DNA from: a virus
IMG/VR virus record: IMGVR_UViG_3300027770_000299
Location: 1 to 20,858 of that record
Reading direction: 5' to 3' (one strand)
Length of the DNA: 20,858 nucleotides
A model generated the notes under the pieces. That model saw nothing but the letters and a program-made list of their open reading frames with translations. It was not told the origin of the DNA and searched no databases. Positions 2,061-8,161 of this stretch are shown in pieces. Position numbers and translations under genes: made by a program. Each line of letters starts with the position of its first letter. Position 1 is the stretch's first letter.

Positions 2061-2870
2061 TCAACCACTGCGCCGGCGCTCACTTTCGATGACGTCGAGC
2101 ACGTCGCCCACGCGGTACAACGGCACCGCGCCTAGGTTGCCAGCACGAATCAATCGACCGCGCCTGACCCAACCTTCAAGGCGTTTACGACTGACCGTCT
2201 CGGTGCCAGTCTCGCCGATGGCGCGGGTCATCTCCGAGAGCGTGAGCAGTGAGTCACCTGCGGCTTCTAGCCGATTGCGTCGCCAGATGTACACATCGCG
2301 CTCGGTTGAGCAGACCTGGCAGCGCACGCTAGTCAAGCCCTCAACGGCGTACAGCTCCTCGCCGCACTCGCCATCATCGCCATCACATGTACCCGCGTAC
2401 ACGCGGTCGGCGGCGCGGTCGATGGCGGTGCGCGCCTGGCTGACGGCATAGCCGACCTCGTCGATGGCGGTGTGGCCTTCAGGATGGACGACGAGCCACC
2501 CGTGCAGATGCATCAGTGCCGCGGCCATGCCAACCACGGATGGCGACGGCAACGGCACGCTTGGGTGCGCGTCGAGCCCTTCACGTACCCACGGCCAGAG
2601 CGTGCGAGACAGCAGTTCGGCGGCGTCGCTGGCGTCCACGTTGTACGGCAGCGGTGTCTCGCTCGACCTCGGCCCGTTGCTTGACCCGCTCGCTGTCTGG
2701 CGCGACAGCGTGGTGTCGAGCTCGGTGATGATGGCCGGGATATCTCCAATGTTGGTGTCGAATCGTCGCCAGCAGGCCGGGCACGCGGTGCTGTTGTCGC
2801 CAGTTGGCATCGGCCGGCCGCACTTCTCGGCGGCACAGGTGCGCGTCTTTGGCGGTTGATGTGGACTCAT
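2061..2870 (-). CDS. Zinc-ribbon protein with C-terminal MerR-like HTH
   Basis: The 269-residue protein has two predicted zinc sites and a DNA-binding end. Cys 12, 17, 30 and 33 form an N-terminal knuckle; Cys 162, 169, 184 and 187 form a second ribbon; residues 208-262 resemble the HTH of MerR/excisionase-type proteins (LTLSEMTRAI, then VSRKRLEGWVRRGRL, then PLYRVGDV). ATG at 2870 has AGGAG eight bases upstream. It follows the iteron-like array and is the last gene before the terminator at 1986-2007. It probably binds DNA, perhaps as a transcriptional regulator of the late or packaging genes, but no exact function can be read. Confidence 0.75.
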   Translation of the reverse strand: MSPHQPPKTRTCAAEKCGRPMPTGDNSTACPACWRRFDTNIGDIPAIITELDTTLSRQTASGSSNGPRSSETPLPYNVDASDAAELLSRTLWPWVREGLDAHPSVPLPSPSVVGMAAALMHLHGWLVVHPEGHTAIDEVGYAVSQARTAIDRAADRVYAGTCDGDDGECGEELYAVEGLTSVRCQVCSTERDVYIWRRNRLEAAGDSLLTLSEMTRAIGETGTETVSRKRLEGWVRRGRLIRAGNLGAVPLYRVGDVLDVIESERRRSG

Positions 2871-2939
2871 CGTGGTCGCTCCTGGGTGTTGTGAGGACTC
2901 AATCGGATGAAATCTTCTGCTCTCTCGCGCGTGTCTACT

Positions 2940-2972
2940 ACCTGTGGTTTCCCTCGGCGTTTAACCACAGGT
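2940..2972. repeat. Perfect 10-bp inverted repeat, possible operator or hairpin
   Basis: ACCTGTGGTT and AACCACAGGT are perfect arms separated by 13 bases. No T-run follows on either strand, so a classical terminator is less likely than a protein-binding site or a structured leader for the gene starting at 2870. It lies about 30 bases from the iteron-like array, in the same 201-base gene-free gap. Confidence 0.55.
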
Positions 2973-2983
2973 CTTCGTTAGTG

Positions 2984-3071
2984 CGTTCGTCCGTTCGTTC
3001 GTGCATATGCGCCGCGCATATGCGACCCGCATGCGTCGCGCATATGCGTCGCGCATATGCGTCGCGCATGC
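2984..3071. repeat. Iteron-like array of 13-bp palindrome-centred repeats, candidate replication origin
   Basis: Six units are centred on GCATATGC or its shortened form GCATGC, starting at 3003, 3016, 3029, 3040, 3053 and 3066. Steps are 13 bp except after the third unit (11 bp, matching its 2-base loss). The unit consensus is CGCGCATATGCGT. A short CGTT/CGTC run (2984-3001) precedes it. The array ends one base before the stop codon of the DnaD-like gene. Regular iterons beside a replication gene are a hallmark of origins; the origin role itself is inference. A repressor or partition-type site is the alternative. Confidence 0.7.
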
Positions 3072-3440
3072 TCATCGGCCTGCCTTGGGTGCTGGCGGCT
3101 CGTCGGGATGCCACCGTGCTAGTGCTGCTTTCTGGGCGTTCTTGCGGCGCTCAACTTGCTCTAATCCGCTCTGCTGGTACTCATTCCAGTCGTTGACCTG
3201 GTAACCGCCAGTCGTGTCATGCCACAGGCCGACGCTCACGAGTTGGGTGGCGAGGCGCTTGTTCGCGTGGATGAATGGAAGCGCGCCGGCGGGGATATAG
3301 CCGTCAGTTCCGTGCGTTCCTGAGTAGCCGAGGCCGCAGATGTAGGCCACAACGGCGGCGTGATTCTTGTCCTCGATGAGGTGCAGGACCTTCGGATTGG
3401 TCGCGAATTGAGTGTCAAGACGGACCCACGGCAGGCTCAT
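3072..3440 (-). CDS. DnaD-like / winged-helix replication initiation protein
   Basis: The 122-residue protein begins SLPWVRLDTQFATNPKVLHL and contains GLGYSGTHGTDGYIP, ALPFIH and a GLWHD turn, a pattern shared by a large actinophage family resembling the N-terminal winged helix of DnaD/replisome organiser proteins. Such proteins bind origin DNA or help load helicase. The C-terminus is basic (ERRKNAQKAALARWH), as in many relatives. ATG at 3440 overlaps the preceding stop (ATGA). The iteron-like array begins directly beyond its stop codon, which supports a role in replication. The lack of a full initiator domain leaves the exact step open. Confidence 0.7.
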   Translation of the reverse strand: MSLPWVRLDTQFATNPKVLHLIEDKNHAAVVAYICGLGYSGTHGTDGYIPAGALPFIHANKRLATQLVSVGLWHDTTGGYQVNDWNEYQQSGLEQVERRKNAQKAALARWHPDEPPAPKAGR

Positions 3441-3913
3441 GATGTGCCGACCTTGGCCCGTAGTGACGACTGAATGGTGGGCTGGCAGTGCTCGTGTGAT
3501 GCCACGTGGAACGGTGTTCCTGATCCAGAGCCCATGAATGGGCGGGCTTCCCTGTAGTTGATCCACGTGTCGATGGACATGAAGCCGGGCGTCTCGCCTT
3601 GGTGCCAGAACGCGTAGACCGCCGCGTGCCCGGTAGCGGTTGCGAGCTCGTGGAGTGCTGCGGTAGATGCGTCTTCACAACTGTGGTTTCCGTACTTCGT
3701 GACGCCAACGGACTTCTTTGCTTCTAGCCATACGAACGTGTCACCAGAGCACAGCAGGAAGTCGGGCAACCATCGCAGAAGCGTCGGCTTTTGGAAGAGC
3801 GCACGGCGTGAGAGTGGCCCGAGCATGGCCTGCCCGAACTGCTCAACTTCCACGTTAGGAAGCGATGAGATGTAGGCGTGCACGCACTCTTCCCACTCGC
3901 GCCCTTCTCTCAT
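3437..3913 (-). CDS. PD-(D/E)XK-type nuclease
   Basis: The 158-residue protein shows a PD-(D/E)XK core: E8 in an N-terminal helix, LPDFLL with D51, and LEAKKS with E64 and K66. Spacing fits Holliday-junction-resolvase-like or Vsr/TnsA-like small nucleases. ATG at 3913 overlaps the stop of the ParB-methyltransferase gene (ATGA), so the two proteins are likely made together; GTG at 3922 is an alternative start. The pairing with a methyltransferase allows two readings, a recombination nuclease or a restriction-like partner. The sequence does not decide between them. Confidence 0.7.
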   Translation of the reverse strand: MREGREWEECVHAYISSLPNVEVEQFGQAMLGPLSRRALFQKPTLLRWLPDFLLCSGDTFVWLEAKKSVGVTKYGNHSCEDASTAALHELATATGHAAVYAFWHQGETPGFMSIDTWINYREARPFMGSGSGTPFHVASHEHCQPTIQSSLRAKVGTS

Positions 3914-5154
3914 GCGATCCACTGAGCACCACTAACGCGCTCAACGGCCACGGCAAACCGCTCGGCGTCGGCTTCAACGCCGATGAACTTTCGGCCCATC
4001 TCAATGGCTAGGAATCCGTAAGAGCCGGTCCCGGTGAACGGGTCTAGCACTGTGCCACCGGGCGGGCAGAGCGAGTCGATCAACATGCGGGCGGGCTCGG
4101 GATCCTGCTGCCATCGGTACAAGTCCTTGGCCCGTGCGCTTGGGTTGAGCACGTCGGGATGCCAGTCAATGCGCCCACTGGGCCATTCGCCATTGCTGTA
4201 GGCGAGCCACGGTTTCCATGCTTGCAGCGTGTGGCGGGCCAAGATGCGACTGTGTGAGCCCGGCAGCGGCTGGGAGTACATCCACCCGTATTGGAGATGT
4301 TCACCCAGGCGCGTCATTACCTGTGGCAGTTGAATCTTTCCGGTGAGCGCCACAAGTATGCCTTGGGGAACGAGCACTCGGCTGGCGTGCTTGGCGAGAT
4401 CGCTCCACAGGTGCTGGAACTCTTGGGGATACGGCGGGTCTGTGACGATCAGGTCAACGCTGCCGTTTGGCAGTTCGGCGAGTCGGTCGCGGAAGTCGCC
4501 GACATACATGCGCCAGTGTTCGCCGGTTGCATCGGATGGAACTTCAGCCATGATGATGACGCGGGCGGTCTGCTCCTCTTTCTGCTTGGTGATTCTCTTG
4601 GCTTGGGCTTCGGCCGTCTTGAGCGGCAGCGTTCCGGCCTTGACGGCTTCAACGATGGGCACAACGTCGTCGTCGGTGTCGGCAAGCTTCTGCAAAGCCT
4701 TAGCGCGCGACACACTACGGCCGCTTACGCCGATAGCCTTCGCGGCCTTATCCGCAGACCACTTTGGCTCGTTTGACTCTCGCCCCGGGGCAAGAGTCAC
4801 TTTGCTCTTACGCTGAGATTCCAGAACCTTCGTTTCGGCCCCGTACTGCTTCTCTACTTCTAGCGAGAAGAACGACAACTGGCCTTCTGTCATGTGGCGT
4901 CGGCGCACGTTGATTGAGACTATGTAGCCGATTGGGTCAGTGCCGGAGTAGACGACAAAGCGCGGCCGAACGGCAGCGCGGGTACAGGCCGCCAATCGGT
5001 TGCGACCGTCGAGCAGCGTTCCGTCTGGCAGGAGTGTGAGCGACTGTAGAAGTCCTTGCTCCTTGATGTCGTCAGCGAGCGCGACCAGCTCGGACTCGCT
5101 CAACATCGGGAAGAGCTCGGCCGCAGGATGTACCTGGCCGTTTGGCTTAGTCAT
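3910..5154 (-). CDS. ParB-like domain fused to DNA methyltransferase (N6A/N4C, beta-type order)
   Basis: The 414-residue protein has an N-terminal ParB/Srx-like domain (about 1-110, with DGTLLDGRNRLAA at 44-56), an HTH-like segment near 132-155 (WSADKAAKAIGVSGRSVSRA), and a C-terminal methyltransferase domain with TDPPYP at 238-243 and the SAM-binding DPFTGTGS at 371-378. The catalytic motif precedes the SAM motif, as in beta-class amino-methyltransferases. Such fusions are common in phages and probably methylate phage DNA, either to escape restriction or to mark sites for replication or packaging. ATG at 5154 has AAGGA about nine bases upstream and follows an 82-base gap with a strong hairpin. 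The next gene encodes a nuclease. Confidence 0.9.
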   Translation of the reverse strand: MTKPNGQVHPAAELFPMLSESELVALADDIKEQGLLQSLTLLPDGTLLDGRNRLAACTRAAVRPRFVVYSGTDPIGYIVSINVRRRHMTEGQLSFFSLEVEKQYGAETKVLESQRKSKVTLAPGRESNEPKWSADKAAKAIGVSGRSVSRAKALQKLADTDDDVVPIVEAVKAGTLPLKTAEAQAKRITKQKEEQTARVIIMAEVPSDATGEHWRMYVGDFRDRLAELPNGSVDLIVTDPPYPQEFQHLWSDLAKHASRVLVPQGILVALTGKIQLPQVMTRLGEHLQYGWMYSQPLPGSHSRILARHTLQAWKPWLAYSNGEWPSGRIDWHPDVLNPSARAKDLYRWQQDPEPARMLIDSLCPPGGTVLDPFTGTGSYGFLAIEMGRKFIGVEADAERFAVAVERVSGAQWIA

Positions 5155-5188
5155 ACTTGGGTGTCCTTCTCTCGTATGGGTTGGATGG

Positions 5189-5229
5189 CACCGGCCCGCC
5201 GTCTGCTTGGCGGTAGTGGCGGGCCGGTG
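5189..5229 (-). terminator. Strong hairpin between ssb and the ParB-methyltransferase gene
   Basis: CACCGGCCCGCC and GGCGGGCCGGTG form a perfect 12-bp stem around a 17-base loop. There is no U-tract after it on the minus strand, so it may be a weak terminator, a processing or stability element at the end of the ssb message, or an attenuator for the downstream genes. Confidence 0.5.
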
Positions 5230-5236
5230 CGCGTGG

Positions 5237-5653
5237 CTAGAACGGTGCCTGTGTCGCCCACGGGTCACCCGCGGGCTCGGTCTCGCCAAAGCCCTTGGCC
5301 GACTCCGACCACTGCGACGCCTGGCCGCCCTTCGCTCGACGGCCGAACGTGTCGGCGATGACGGCTTTCCGGCTGCGCTTCTCGCCGGCCGGTGTCTCCC
5401 AGTGCTCATCGCGCACGCGGCCGACGATGACGACGCGGTCGCCCTTGTGGAGCTGCGCCGCGGCGTCATCGGCGACGAGTCCGAAGAGCGTCACGTCCCA
5501 CCAGGTGGTGTCGACGTCTTCCCACGTGCCCGACTCGGTGCGCTTGCGACCGTTAGTGACCACCGACAGGCGGGTCAGCGTCTTGCCGTTGCTCGTGGTC
5601 TTGAGCTCAGGGTCTTGTCCTAGTCGCCCGTCGAGGGTGATGGTCGCGCTCAT
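5237..5653 (-). CDS. ssb: Single-stranded DNA-binding protein
   Basis: The 138-residue protein has the OB-fold of bacterial SSB: SATITLDGRLGQDPEL at the start, then WWDVTLFG, KGDRVVIVGRVRDEHW and the following strand, covering about 1-105. A short glycine/serine/proline tail ends in PWATQAPF, a weak version of the acidic C-terminal peptide that recruits repair proteins. ATG at 5653 overlaps the stop of the RecT-like gene (ATGA). It probably coats single strands made by the exonuclease and assists annealing and replication. Confidence 0.95.
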   Translation of the reverse strand: MSATITLDGRLGQDPELKTTSNGKTLTRLSVVTNGRKRTESGTWEDVDTTWWDVTLFGLVADDAAAQLHKGDRVVIVGRVRDEHWETPAGEKRSRKAVIADTFGRRAKGGQASQWSESAKGFGETEPAGDPWATQAPF

Positions 5654-6518: not shown

Positions 6519-7394
6519 TCACCTCGGACTCGGGACGGGGAGCGGCATCGGCAGCTCAATGCCGTATTTGTAGGCTAAAACCTTGATTGGCCGTTCTTGC
6601 ACGTAGGCGTTCCACGCCTTTGCGATAACCGAGACCGTGGTCTGCTGTTTTTGCATTGAGTTGGCTGGCGCGTTGTAGTTAATCGCCCAACGCCTCAACG
6701 CATATGCGGGAGAAGTTTCGTCTAATAGCACGCCATCGCGCACGTCAGTCACAAACTCATCCCACATTTCGCCGCCGTTCACGGACGACTGAGAGACGAC
6801 GAAGGCGACCGCCGCAAACTGCGCTCGCGAAATGCGAGTCGCTCGTTCAACCCTGTACCCGACAGTGCCGCAAACCGCCAAGGCGTCAGCGTGGTCTACG
6901 ACAAACCTTCTGACCAGTGCGCTTGCAATCGCGTTGCCGGCGCCCCAGTTGACGTTTGGCAATTGGCGCATTCGCAAAGCCGAATGAGCGGCAGCCCTTA
7001 AAACGTTGGCATCCTTCACTCCTTGCATCTGAAGGATTTGACTATCACGACGCGGACCAGCGCCTCCTACGTCAATTACTTTGAAGTCTTCTGGGTCAGC
7101 ATCGAACAGCACCCACATTTTGTAAGCAAAGCCGCTGCGAACAATTGCGGATAGTCGATGCTGCCCGTCCTGCAATTGGTTGTCTCGGTCAATGATAATC
7201 GTGCTACCTGTGGCTCCTCGAAACAGGTCTGACTGCATTTCGGTAACGATGCGCTGGACGGCTCTGCTGTTAAGTCGTCGATTTCTTGTGTTACGCGCCA
7301 ACCACTGAGCCGCGATCTCCGGTGTTACCAGAACTAGCTCCATGCGTGGCGACGGGTGAATCGCGTTGTGCGAATTGATCTGCGCGGTACTCAT
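6519..7394 (-). CDS. ParB/DGQHR-type protein between exonuclease and annealing protein
   Basis: The 291-residue protein carries LQDGQHRLSAIVRSG at 74-88, the signature loop of ParB/sulfiredoxin-like nucleotide-binding domains also seen in DGQHR proteins. The N-terminal part (VTPEIAAQWLARNTRNRRLNS) resembles phage relatives that list numbers of fixed positions before this loop. The remaining 200 residues are helical and not recognised. ATG at 7394 overlaps the exonuclease stop (ATGA), so it is embedded in the recombination set. It may use nucleotide to act on DNA or regulate the pair, but its biochemical role is unknown. Codon bias looks less GC-rich than its neighbours in places, which may mean separate acquisition. 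Confidence 0.75.
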   Translation of the reverse strand: MSTAQINSHNAIHPSPRMELVLVTPEIAAQWLARNTRNRRLNSRAVQRIVTEMQSDLFRGATGSTIIIDRDNQLQDGQHRLSAIVRSGFAYKMWVLFDADPEDFKVIDVGGAGPRRDSQILQMQGVKDANVLRAAAHSALRMRQLPNVNWGAGNAIASALVRRFVVDHADALAVCGTVGYRVERATRISRAQFAAVAFVVSQSSVNGGEMWDEFVTDVRDGVLLDETSPAYALRRWAINYNAPANSMQKQQTTVSVIAKAWNAYVQERPIKVLAYKYGIELPMPLPVPSPR

Positions 7395-8161
7395 GCGGGC
7401 ACCGCCGTCAATGCCTCGCCGACGTAGGCCGCATTCGTCTCGGCCTCTTTCGCTACGACGGCGATGTGCCGGAACGCCTTCAACACTGACTCGTCGGCCT
7501 GCATCGGAATGACAGCCCAGCCCGTGCCGGTGATGTGAATGACCGCGCATCGGTCGATGTCAATCATGGGCTGCTCAAGGCCGTCAGCGTCGACGTAGTG
7601 AGTCGCGTAGCGGTAGGCGGCGAGCTGGTAGGCCGTGTCGGCGTAGACGCCCTTGCCGGTTTTGACGTCAAGCAGCCATGTCTCGCCGCCAATGGATGCC
7701 ACGAGGTCGAGGCTTCCCGCGTAGCCGTACTCGCAGTGATAGACGACGGCCTCGACGAGTACCGGCTGCGGGTTGAAGGCGTCGAGAAACTCGACGTAGT
7801 GCGCCACGTGGTCGGCGAGTTCGGCCGGCACGTCGACAGGCTCACCGCGCACGAGTCGCTCGGCCAGGTGGTGCACCTCGGTGCCACGCTTCGCAGCGGC
7901 GTCGCGTTCCTTGTACGGCGCGCCCTTGAGCGTCGTCAACATGTCGGTCGGCTTCATCTCGGCGAGCTCTTCGCGGTTGTTGACCGCGTACTCGGCCACG
8001 GCCTTAATGCCCCACGGCAGGAGTGCGGGCTTAGGCATGCCCTTTCCAAGAATCGTGGTCACGCCCGGCACTTTCTGGCCGTTGATGTCCTCGTAGTGAT
8101 GCGTCGGCTTGCCTCGGTAGGTCGTGTCAACCCTGCGAATCGGCCCCTTGTATTCGGTCAT
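7391..8161 (-). CDS. RecB/Cas4-like PD-(D/E)XK exonuclease
   Basis: The 256-residue protein has the motifs of RecB-family nucleases in order: RGTEVHHLAE (92-101), GYAGSLDLVA with D152, WLLDVKTGK with D165 and K167, and YQLAAYRYA with Q179. Such nucleases resect double-stranded ends. The nearby RecT-like gene makes a two-component recombination system analogous to RecE/RecT or lambda Exo/Beta. ATG at 8161 overlaps the upstream stop (ATGA). No FeS cysteine cluster is visible, so it is not a typical Cas4 protein. Confidence 0.88.
   Translation of the reverse strand: MTEYKGPIRRVDTTYRGKPTHHYEDINGQKVPGVTTILGKGMPKPALLPWGIKAVAEYAVNNREELAEMKPTDMLTTLKGAPYKERDAAAKRGTEVHHLAERLVRGEPVDVPAELADHVAHYVEFLDAFNPQPVLVEAVVYHCEYGYAGSLDLVASIGGETWLLDVKTGKGVYADTAYQLAAYRYATHYVDADGLEQPMIDIDRCAVIHITGTGWAVIPMQADESVLKAFRHIAVVAKEAETNAAYVGEALTAVPA

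Follow-up and report, generated by a model that had tools for sequence, protein, structure and literature searches.

A putative iteron-type replication origin adjoining the gene for a small replisome-organiser-like protein in actinobacterial phages

By sequence comparison, we found that the short palindromic repeats adjoining the gene for a 122-residue replication-type protein are very probably the start site of phage DNA copying, in a layout common to relatives across many actinobacterial viruses. The element is, with high likelihood, an iteron-type phage replication origin, and its 122-aa initiator is predicted to read the iterons with its C-terminal helix. The sequences directly support the layout of the element, its conservation, its occurrence as a single copy, the covariation of iterons with the C-terminal helix, and the enrichment of DnaA boxes in the group. 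The window, that is, the whole stretch of DNA analysed, is the IMG/VR virus record IMGVR_UViG_3300027770_000299, positions 1 to 20,858 (20,858 bases), and its gene set is actinophage-like (terminase, HNH endonuclease, RecT-like, SSB, PD-(D/E)XK nuclease, WhiB-like, and phage integrase). The window also encodes, at 3910-5469 (minus strand), an N6-adenine/N4-cytosine DNA methyltransferase fused to a ParB-like domain.

The repeat array and its module

The array belongs to a larger module, present in single copy, which in the related phages runs, in the direction of the gene, from the iterons through 4–8 ACNN tetrads and ACTNACGNAGA to a spacer of about 35–45 nt and GTAACGCGCGC. The corresponding features of the window are as follows, with the evidence for each in brackets.

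3072..3440, minus strand: initiator gene, 122 aa (phrog_3926; Phage_rep_org_N in relatives; AlphaFold2; ATG start at 3440 from the relatives' alignment)
3072..3164, minus strand: part of this gene for the C-terminal helix with its tail (roughly residues 93–122), the segment covarying with the iterons (covariation; AlphaFold2)
3003..3071, minus strand: iteron array, made up of six palindromic cores set apart by 5-bp spacers (repeat analysis; comparison with the nearest relative, L089)
2975..3002, minus strand: run of seven ACNN tetrads, ACGA ACGA ACGG ACGA ACGC ACTA ACGA (flush with the last iteron; period-4 conservation in relatives; identical in L089)
2972..2974, minus strand: AGA closing the tetrad run, consensus ACTNACGNAGA (relatives' alignment)
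2940..2972, no strand: perfect inverted repeat with 10-bp arms, ACCTGTGGTT / AACCACAGGT, enclosing a 13-nt loop (at the site of the ACTCACCTT segment in the group)
2926..2932, minus strand: ACGCGCG, the module's 3' landmark, with GTAACGCGCGC as group consensus (relatives' alignment; L089)
2856..2915, no strand: most AT-rich 60-nt stretch adjoining the module, 50% GC (2.6% of window positions lower)

The letters of the cores are GCATATGC or GCATGC, at positions 3003-3010, 3016-3023, 3029-3034, 3040-3047, 3053-3060, and 3066-3071. An earlier note on this DNA had described six palindrome-centred units stepping by 13, 13, 11, 13, and 13 bases, and these steps are recovered exactly from the left edges of the cores, whereas the core centres step by 13, 12, 12, 13, and 12, because two of the cores have the 6-bp form. 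The note had also placed the array flush against the gene; indeed, the TGA stop (complement of 3072-3074) directly adjoins it, with zero bases between. In contrast, the start that it gave for the array, 2984, falls inside the separate tetrad element at 2975-3002, and the cores begin at 3003.

No other short-period repeat in the window is as strong as the array, whose self-match at a shift of 13 is 80%, compared with at most 70% when the whole window was dinucleotide-shuffled 40 times. A single 11-mer iteron unit is not rare in itself (19 matches versus 16.4 expected, with 2 mismatches allowed), and 6-nt palindromes are not more numerous than in shuffles; thus, the signal of the array is its regular tandem arrangement. 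One single iteron-like palindrome (AACGCATATGCGG) also occurs at 6697-6710, within the gene 6519-7550.

The nearest relative, L089 (CAITQY010000171.1), is identical in 322 of 369 bases of the gene and in 115 of 122 residues (94%) of the protein. This relative and the window agree at 44 of 44 core bases and at 28 of 28 tetrad bases, and the 6 differences are all confined to the 25 bases of the spacers (P 0.0015, calculated for the array). The contig of L089 is binned as Gemmatimonadetes and is probably a mis-binned actinophage contig. The inverted repeat at 2940-2972 is partly kept in L089, and its arms resemble a degenerate DnaA box. The repeat unit had earlier been put forward as a defined iteron type for the phage group, a claim that does not hold, since the 13-mer CGCGCATATGCGT is restricted to the window phage and this closest relative; the parts that are constant in the group are the layout and the tetrads. 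A single unit serving as a group-wide iteron was rejected, as the iterons differ by phage.

The tetrad run starts at the exact end of the last core in 32 of 62 scored modules. In an alignment of 95 non-redundant modules, in which the last two tetrads were imposed by the extraction rule and are thus not to be counted as evidence, A and C are kept at every fourth step and are followed by G in most; the fourth base is free, but C is rare there (17/492). Because 81 of the 95 runs mix tetrad types, the run is not a slippage repeat. Between the tetrads and GTAACGCGCGC, tails of relatives (e.g. L015 and L020) carry 2–3 copies of a YTYACSTTNG-like motif about 18–19 bp apart. A search of the open-access literature found no description of the module, and its novelty is provisional for that reason.

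The initiator gene and the module in related phages

The window initiator matches phrog_3926, annotated as 'replication initiation protein', with an E value of 9e-33. It has no Pfam match itself, and the Pfam family PF09681 (Phage_rep_org_N) is matched by 14 of 50 members of its family (best 1.2e-6). Moreover, replisome organisers are among its viral fold matches found with Foldseek in BFVD (1.1e-5 and 6.6e-4). The AlphaFold2 model has a mean pLDDT of 84 and a helix at residues 93–110, for which the value is about 77; as modelled, the initiator resembles a replisome-organiser-like winged helix (residues 1–92) followed by this C-terminal helix. No DnaD family match was returned for it by scans of Pfam, PHROGs, and NCBIfam. 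A PDB sequence search with the initiator family gave nothing at E 1, and a PDB fold search gave no credible relative, with no match below 0.001 and no RepA_N among the 50 matches listed. On the PF09681 matches and the viral replisome-organiser folds, the initiator, which the earlier note had called DnaD-like, is judged to be closer to Phage_rep_org_N than to DnaD.

Relatives of the initiator occur in 211 phage records, the more distant ones with other layouts, and a plasmid collection contributed one weak relative. The tetrad score was higher than in all 395 shuffles at 53 of 80 distinct initiator loci; at most of the remaining loci of this set, the tetrad runs are broken by 1–3 nt, and at two divergent loci among the 80, L075 and L077, the module is absent. 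Viral contigs were also scanned blind for ACGNACGNACGNACTNACGNAGA, in a scan that fixes the motif it counts (a stricter earlier motif scan gave 2 hits). Of the 71 contigs returned, 64 carry the initiator upstream of the motif and on its strand, the open frame of the initiator overlapping the tetrad run in one of them; the remaining 7 contigs have less than 360 bp upstream to look in. Among 40 whole records, 28 were matched, none more than once, and a reversed control pattern gave zero matches in the same records, including two bacterial genomes (3.9 and 6.1 Mb). The spacing of iterons in the group has its mode at 12.5–13 bp, close to a single helical turn, in agreement with an iteron-type theta origin.

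These results support the initial interpretation of the array as an origin or initiator-binding array, relatives with the gene having repeats at the same place. The main check put forward in the note, whether relatives with the gene carry repeats, came out in favour of this interpretation: repeats are present in nearly all, L075 and L077 being without them, and the unit itself differs from phage to phage. The genes around the pair vary among phages, and the initiator gene and the module stay together. The gap between the gene and the array is a recurrent insertion site, occupied by HNH or other small genes at L003, L007, L016, L018, L087, and L091, where the module then sits behind the inserted gene, and at L035. 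In the window, the gene directly downstream of the putative origin (2061-2870, minus strand) encodes a phrog_908 protein with a MerR-like C-terminal HTH; in Piper2020, too, an HTH protein (gene 91, L006) is encoded downstream of the module.

A DnaA box nearby is usual, though not universal, for iteron-type theta origins. The perfect box TTRTCCACA was found beside 22 of 90 modules, at a distance of up to 350 nt, and in only 7 of 1461 control segments (Fisher 5e-23). The boxes lie almost always on one strand, at +55 to +144; no perfect box was found in the window. The 60-nt windows at the module are in the lowest 1% by GC content in 6 of 6 complete phages and at 2.6% in the study window, which is supporting evidence only, because intergenic DNA is often AT-richer. 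A shift of GC skew at the array, proposed earlier as a check, was seen in one of six phages, Sonali, whose detrended maximum lies 48 bp from the module; the extremes of the other five lie elsewhere.

Covariation of the iterons with the C-terminal helix

The iteron cores change wholly between phages while the tetrads stay, and the core classes of the group are GCAn(n)TGC, TCCGnnnCGGA, TAGCGATCGCTA, CTATAGCC, ACCGATCGGT, TTTGCCATATGGCAAA, TGACTCA, GTCAC, and GTTCAAC. The relation between the iterons and the initiator was analysed quantitatively by Mantel tests, in which unsupervised k-mer signatures of the arrays were compared with the identity of 13 residues of the C-terminal helix, with N-domain identity controlled. 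Iteron similarity tracks the identity of the C-terminal helix, with a partial Mantel r of 0.57 that was attained in 0 of 2000 permutations (largest permuted value, 0.175). The same covariation was obtained on a profile alignment (0.43–0.48); that alignment misaligned the insertion-bearing classes, and an anchored alignment was therefore used for the value of 0.57. The classical wHTH helix gave a partial r of −0.12 against the iterons, on which the wHTH recognition helix was rejected as the specificity determinant, and the C-terminal helix gave an r of 0.00 against the tetrads and tail.

The signal per position peaks at −11, −8, −7, −4, and −3 from a conserved Arg, which corresponds to one face of the helix, and the spacing of these positions recalls the basic region of bZIP proteins. 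With iteron classes assigned by eye, residue −3 is Ala at 53 of 54 GCA-type, Asn at 15 of 16 CG-type, and Gly at 4 of 4 GCAC-type loci. The tree contains 4 pairs of independent changes in all, 1 of them supported, which are too few for a formal tree-based test of such a code. As the iterons and the helix-coding segment are neighbours in the DNA, co-inheritance by recombination may add to the correlation. Linkage as the sole cause is disfavoured, because the equally close tail, beyond the array, shows zero correlation; several loci with a gene inserted between the end of the helix-coding segment and the iterons are a further point against co-inheritance. The covariation thus points to the small initiator, acting through its C-terminal helix, as the predicted binder of the iterons, rather than to the 2061-2870 protein.

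Possible mechanism, rival explanations, and known systems

We infer that the 122-aa protein from the gene just upstream would bind the palindromic iterons through its C-terminal helix, probably as a dimer, each half-site being read by the exposed face of that helix. Bound initiators would form a nucleoprotein array ending at the invariant ACNN tetrads, and opening would start either at the tetrads or in the relatively AT-rich DNA beyond. The host helicase or replisome would then be recruited, and in some phages host DnaA, about 100–140 bp away, may help. A further reading, for which our confidence is low and which draws on analogy, is that the tetrads are the phage counterpart of the DnaA-trios, opening the origin, and that the bZIP-like C-terminal helix follows a simple code, letting phages switch specificity. 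In such a case, loading would proceed from the last iteron, flush with the tetrads, along steps of 4 nt, which the initiator or a recruited host factor would engage in single-stranded form, and position −3 would pair Ala with GCA, Asn with CG-containing, and Gly with GCAC half-sites. Change of the one helix would then create a new origin specificity, with the opening element constant.

To our knowledge, the lytic origins of these actinobacterial phages are largely unmapped. If the assignment is true, a large group of them would gain an origin defined by sequence, and the module would offer a testable recognition code between initiator helix and origin, a replicator for vectors that is compact and needs a single protein, and a GC-rich tetrad element that is conserved. 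It may also bear on the possible evolution, independently of DnaA, of stepwise motif capture as a way of opening origins.

It seems improbable that the array is an operator through which the small wHTH protein autoregulates or switches the downstream operon, with replication starting elsewhere. Palindromes adjoining their own gene are commonly bound by wHTH proteins, and the array lies between two co-directional genes, at the promoter place for 2061-2870; however, it is downstream, not upstream, of its own gene, its 5–7 tandem sites and invariant tetrad run exceed the needs of an operator, DnaA boxes are enriched beside the module, and the fold and families of the initiator point to replisome organisers. 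The two roles are compatible, and an origin may also act on transcription. Still less probable is a partition or packaging site, either centromere-like repeats or a pac/cos-type element. The covariation of the repeat letters with the initiator helix, the persistence of gene and module together while neighbours differ among phages, and the distance of the terminase genes in complete phages such as Taheera all argue against it, although parS-like sites are also marked by repeat arrays and the ParB-domain methyltransferase (3910-5469) is nearby.

Each core is self-complementary, and the perfect 10-bp inverted repeat at 2940-2972 comes next, as might be expected if the palindromes acted as RNA, either as an array of hairpins in a transcript or as a terminator following the initiator gene. 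Nevertheless, this explanation is very unlikely: the tetrads are conserved in their letters, the GTTCAAC-class iterons are direct repeats with no obvious hairpin, and an RNA element was rejected on the lack of any Rfam match in the window and of a consensus RNA structure in the aligned tail of the relatives.

For an iteron-type origin, the analogy with known systems suggests that the initiator is functionally most like lambda O or RepA_N initiators on their iterons (PMC7466680, PMC7145576). The origins of RepA_N plasmids and PLE satellites involve a winged N-terminal domain, described as DnaD-similar, that binds semi-palindromic direct-repeat iterons, with cognate iterons for each initiator (PMC7145576). 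The pairing of a winged N-terminal domain with iterons is shared, binding being predicted here. As differences, the initiator family gave no sequence match to a solved structure, RepA_N is not among the fold matches listed, and the specificity of window-type initiators appears to map to the C-terminal helix; ACNN tetrads are not mentioned in the passages of PMC7145576 consulted.

Phage replisome organisers (PF09681) resemble the initiator in fold and, for part of its family, in sequence profile, but the window member, at 122 aa, carries no further part behind the C-terminal helix, and its origin lies in non-coding DNA. In the basal unwinding system of bacterial oriC, DnaA boxes are followed by DnaA-trios (PMC10721633). 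The likeness, an analogy of layout only, is that next to the double-strand sites stands a short-period run, made of about six units whose letters are partly free; in contrast, the period here is 4 and not 3, the motif is a GC-rich ACGD, and the window protein is not an AAA+ ATPase. The tetrads as an analogue of DnaA-trios are speculative. The mycobacterial parABS phages, which form extrachromosomal prophages, are likewise actinobacterial phages with an initiator-linked origin; their initiators, unlike that of the window, are RepA-like plasmid proteins, and no repeated motifs were reported at the origin region of the RepA phages (PMC7157519).

The lambda-type origin comprises the O protein, iterons, and an AT-rich tract, and lies inside O (PMC7466680). 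It resembles the present module in the position of the iterons, which lie beside the initiator gene or within it and come straight after the DNA-binding domain, and in the neighbouring stretch that is opened (opening being predicted here). It differs in that the window initiator consists of one short domain and a helix, lacking any additional C-terminal domain, in that palindromes stand here at a 12–13 bp step, and in that a GC-rich tetrad run takes the place of the AT-rich tract of lambda. The in-gene placement of the lambda origin is shared by longer actinophage homologues, those of Appa, Megiddo, Phinally, and Yvonnetastic (L171, L173, L174, and L175), in which the part of the gene separating two domains contains repeats and, after them, a short tandem repeat. 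These tandem repeats have other periods (e.g. CCCGT or CCCGA units, and 12-mers), and the in-gene repeats are probable origins of these related phages. In Propionibacterium phage E6, (CCCGTA)n lies behind a short gene.
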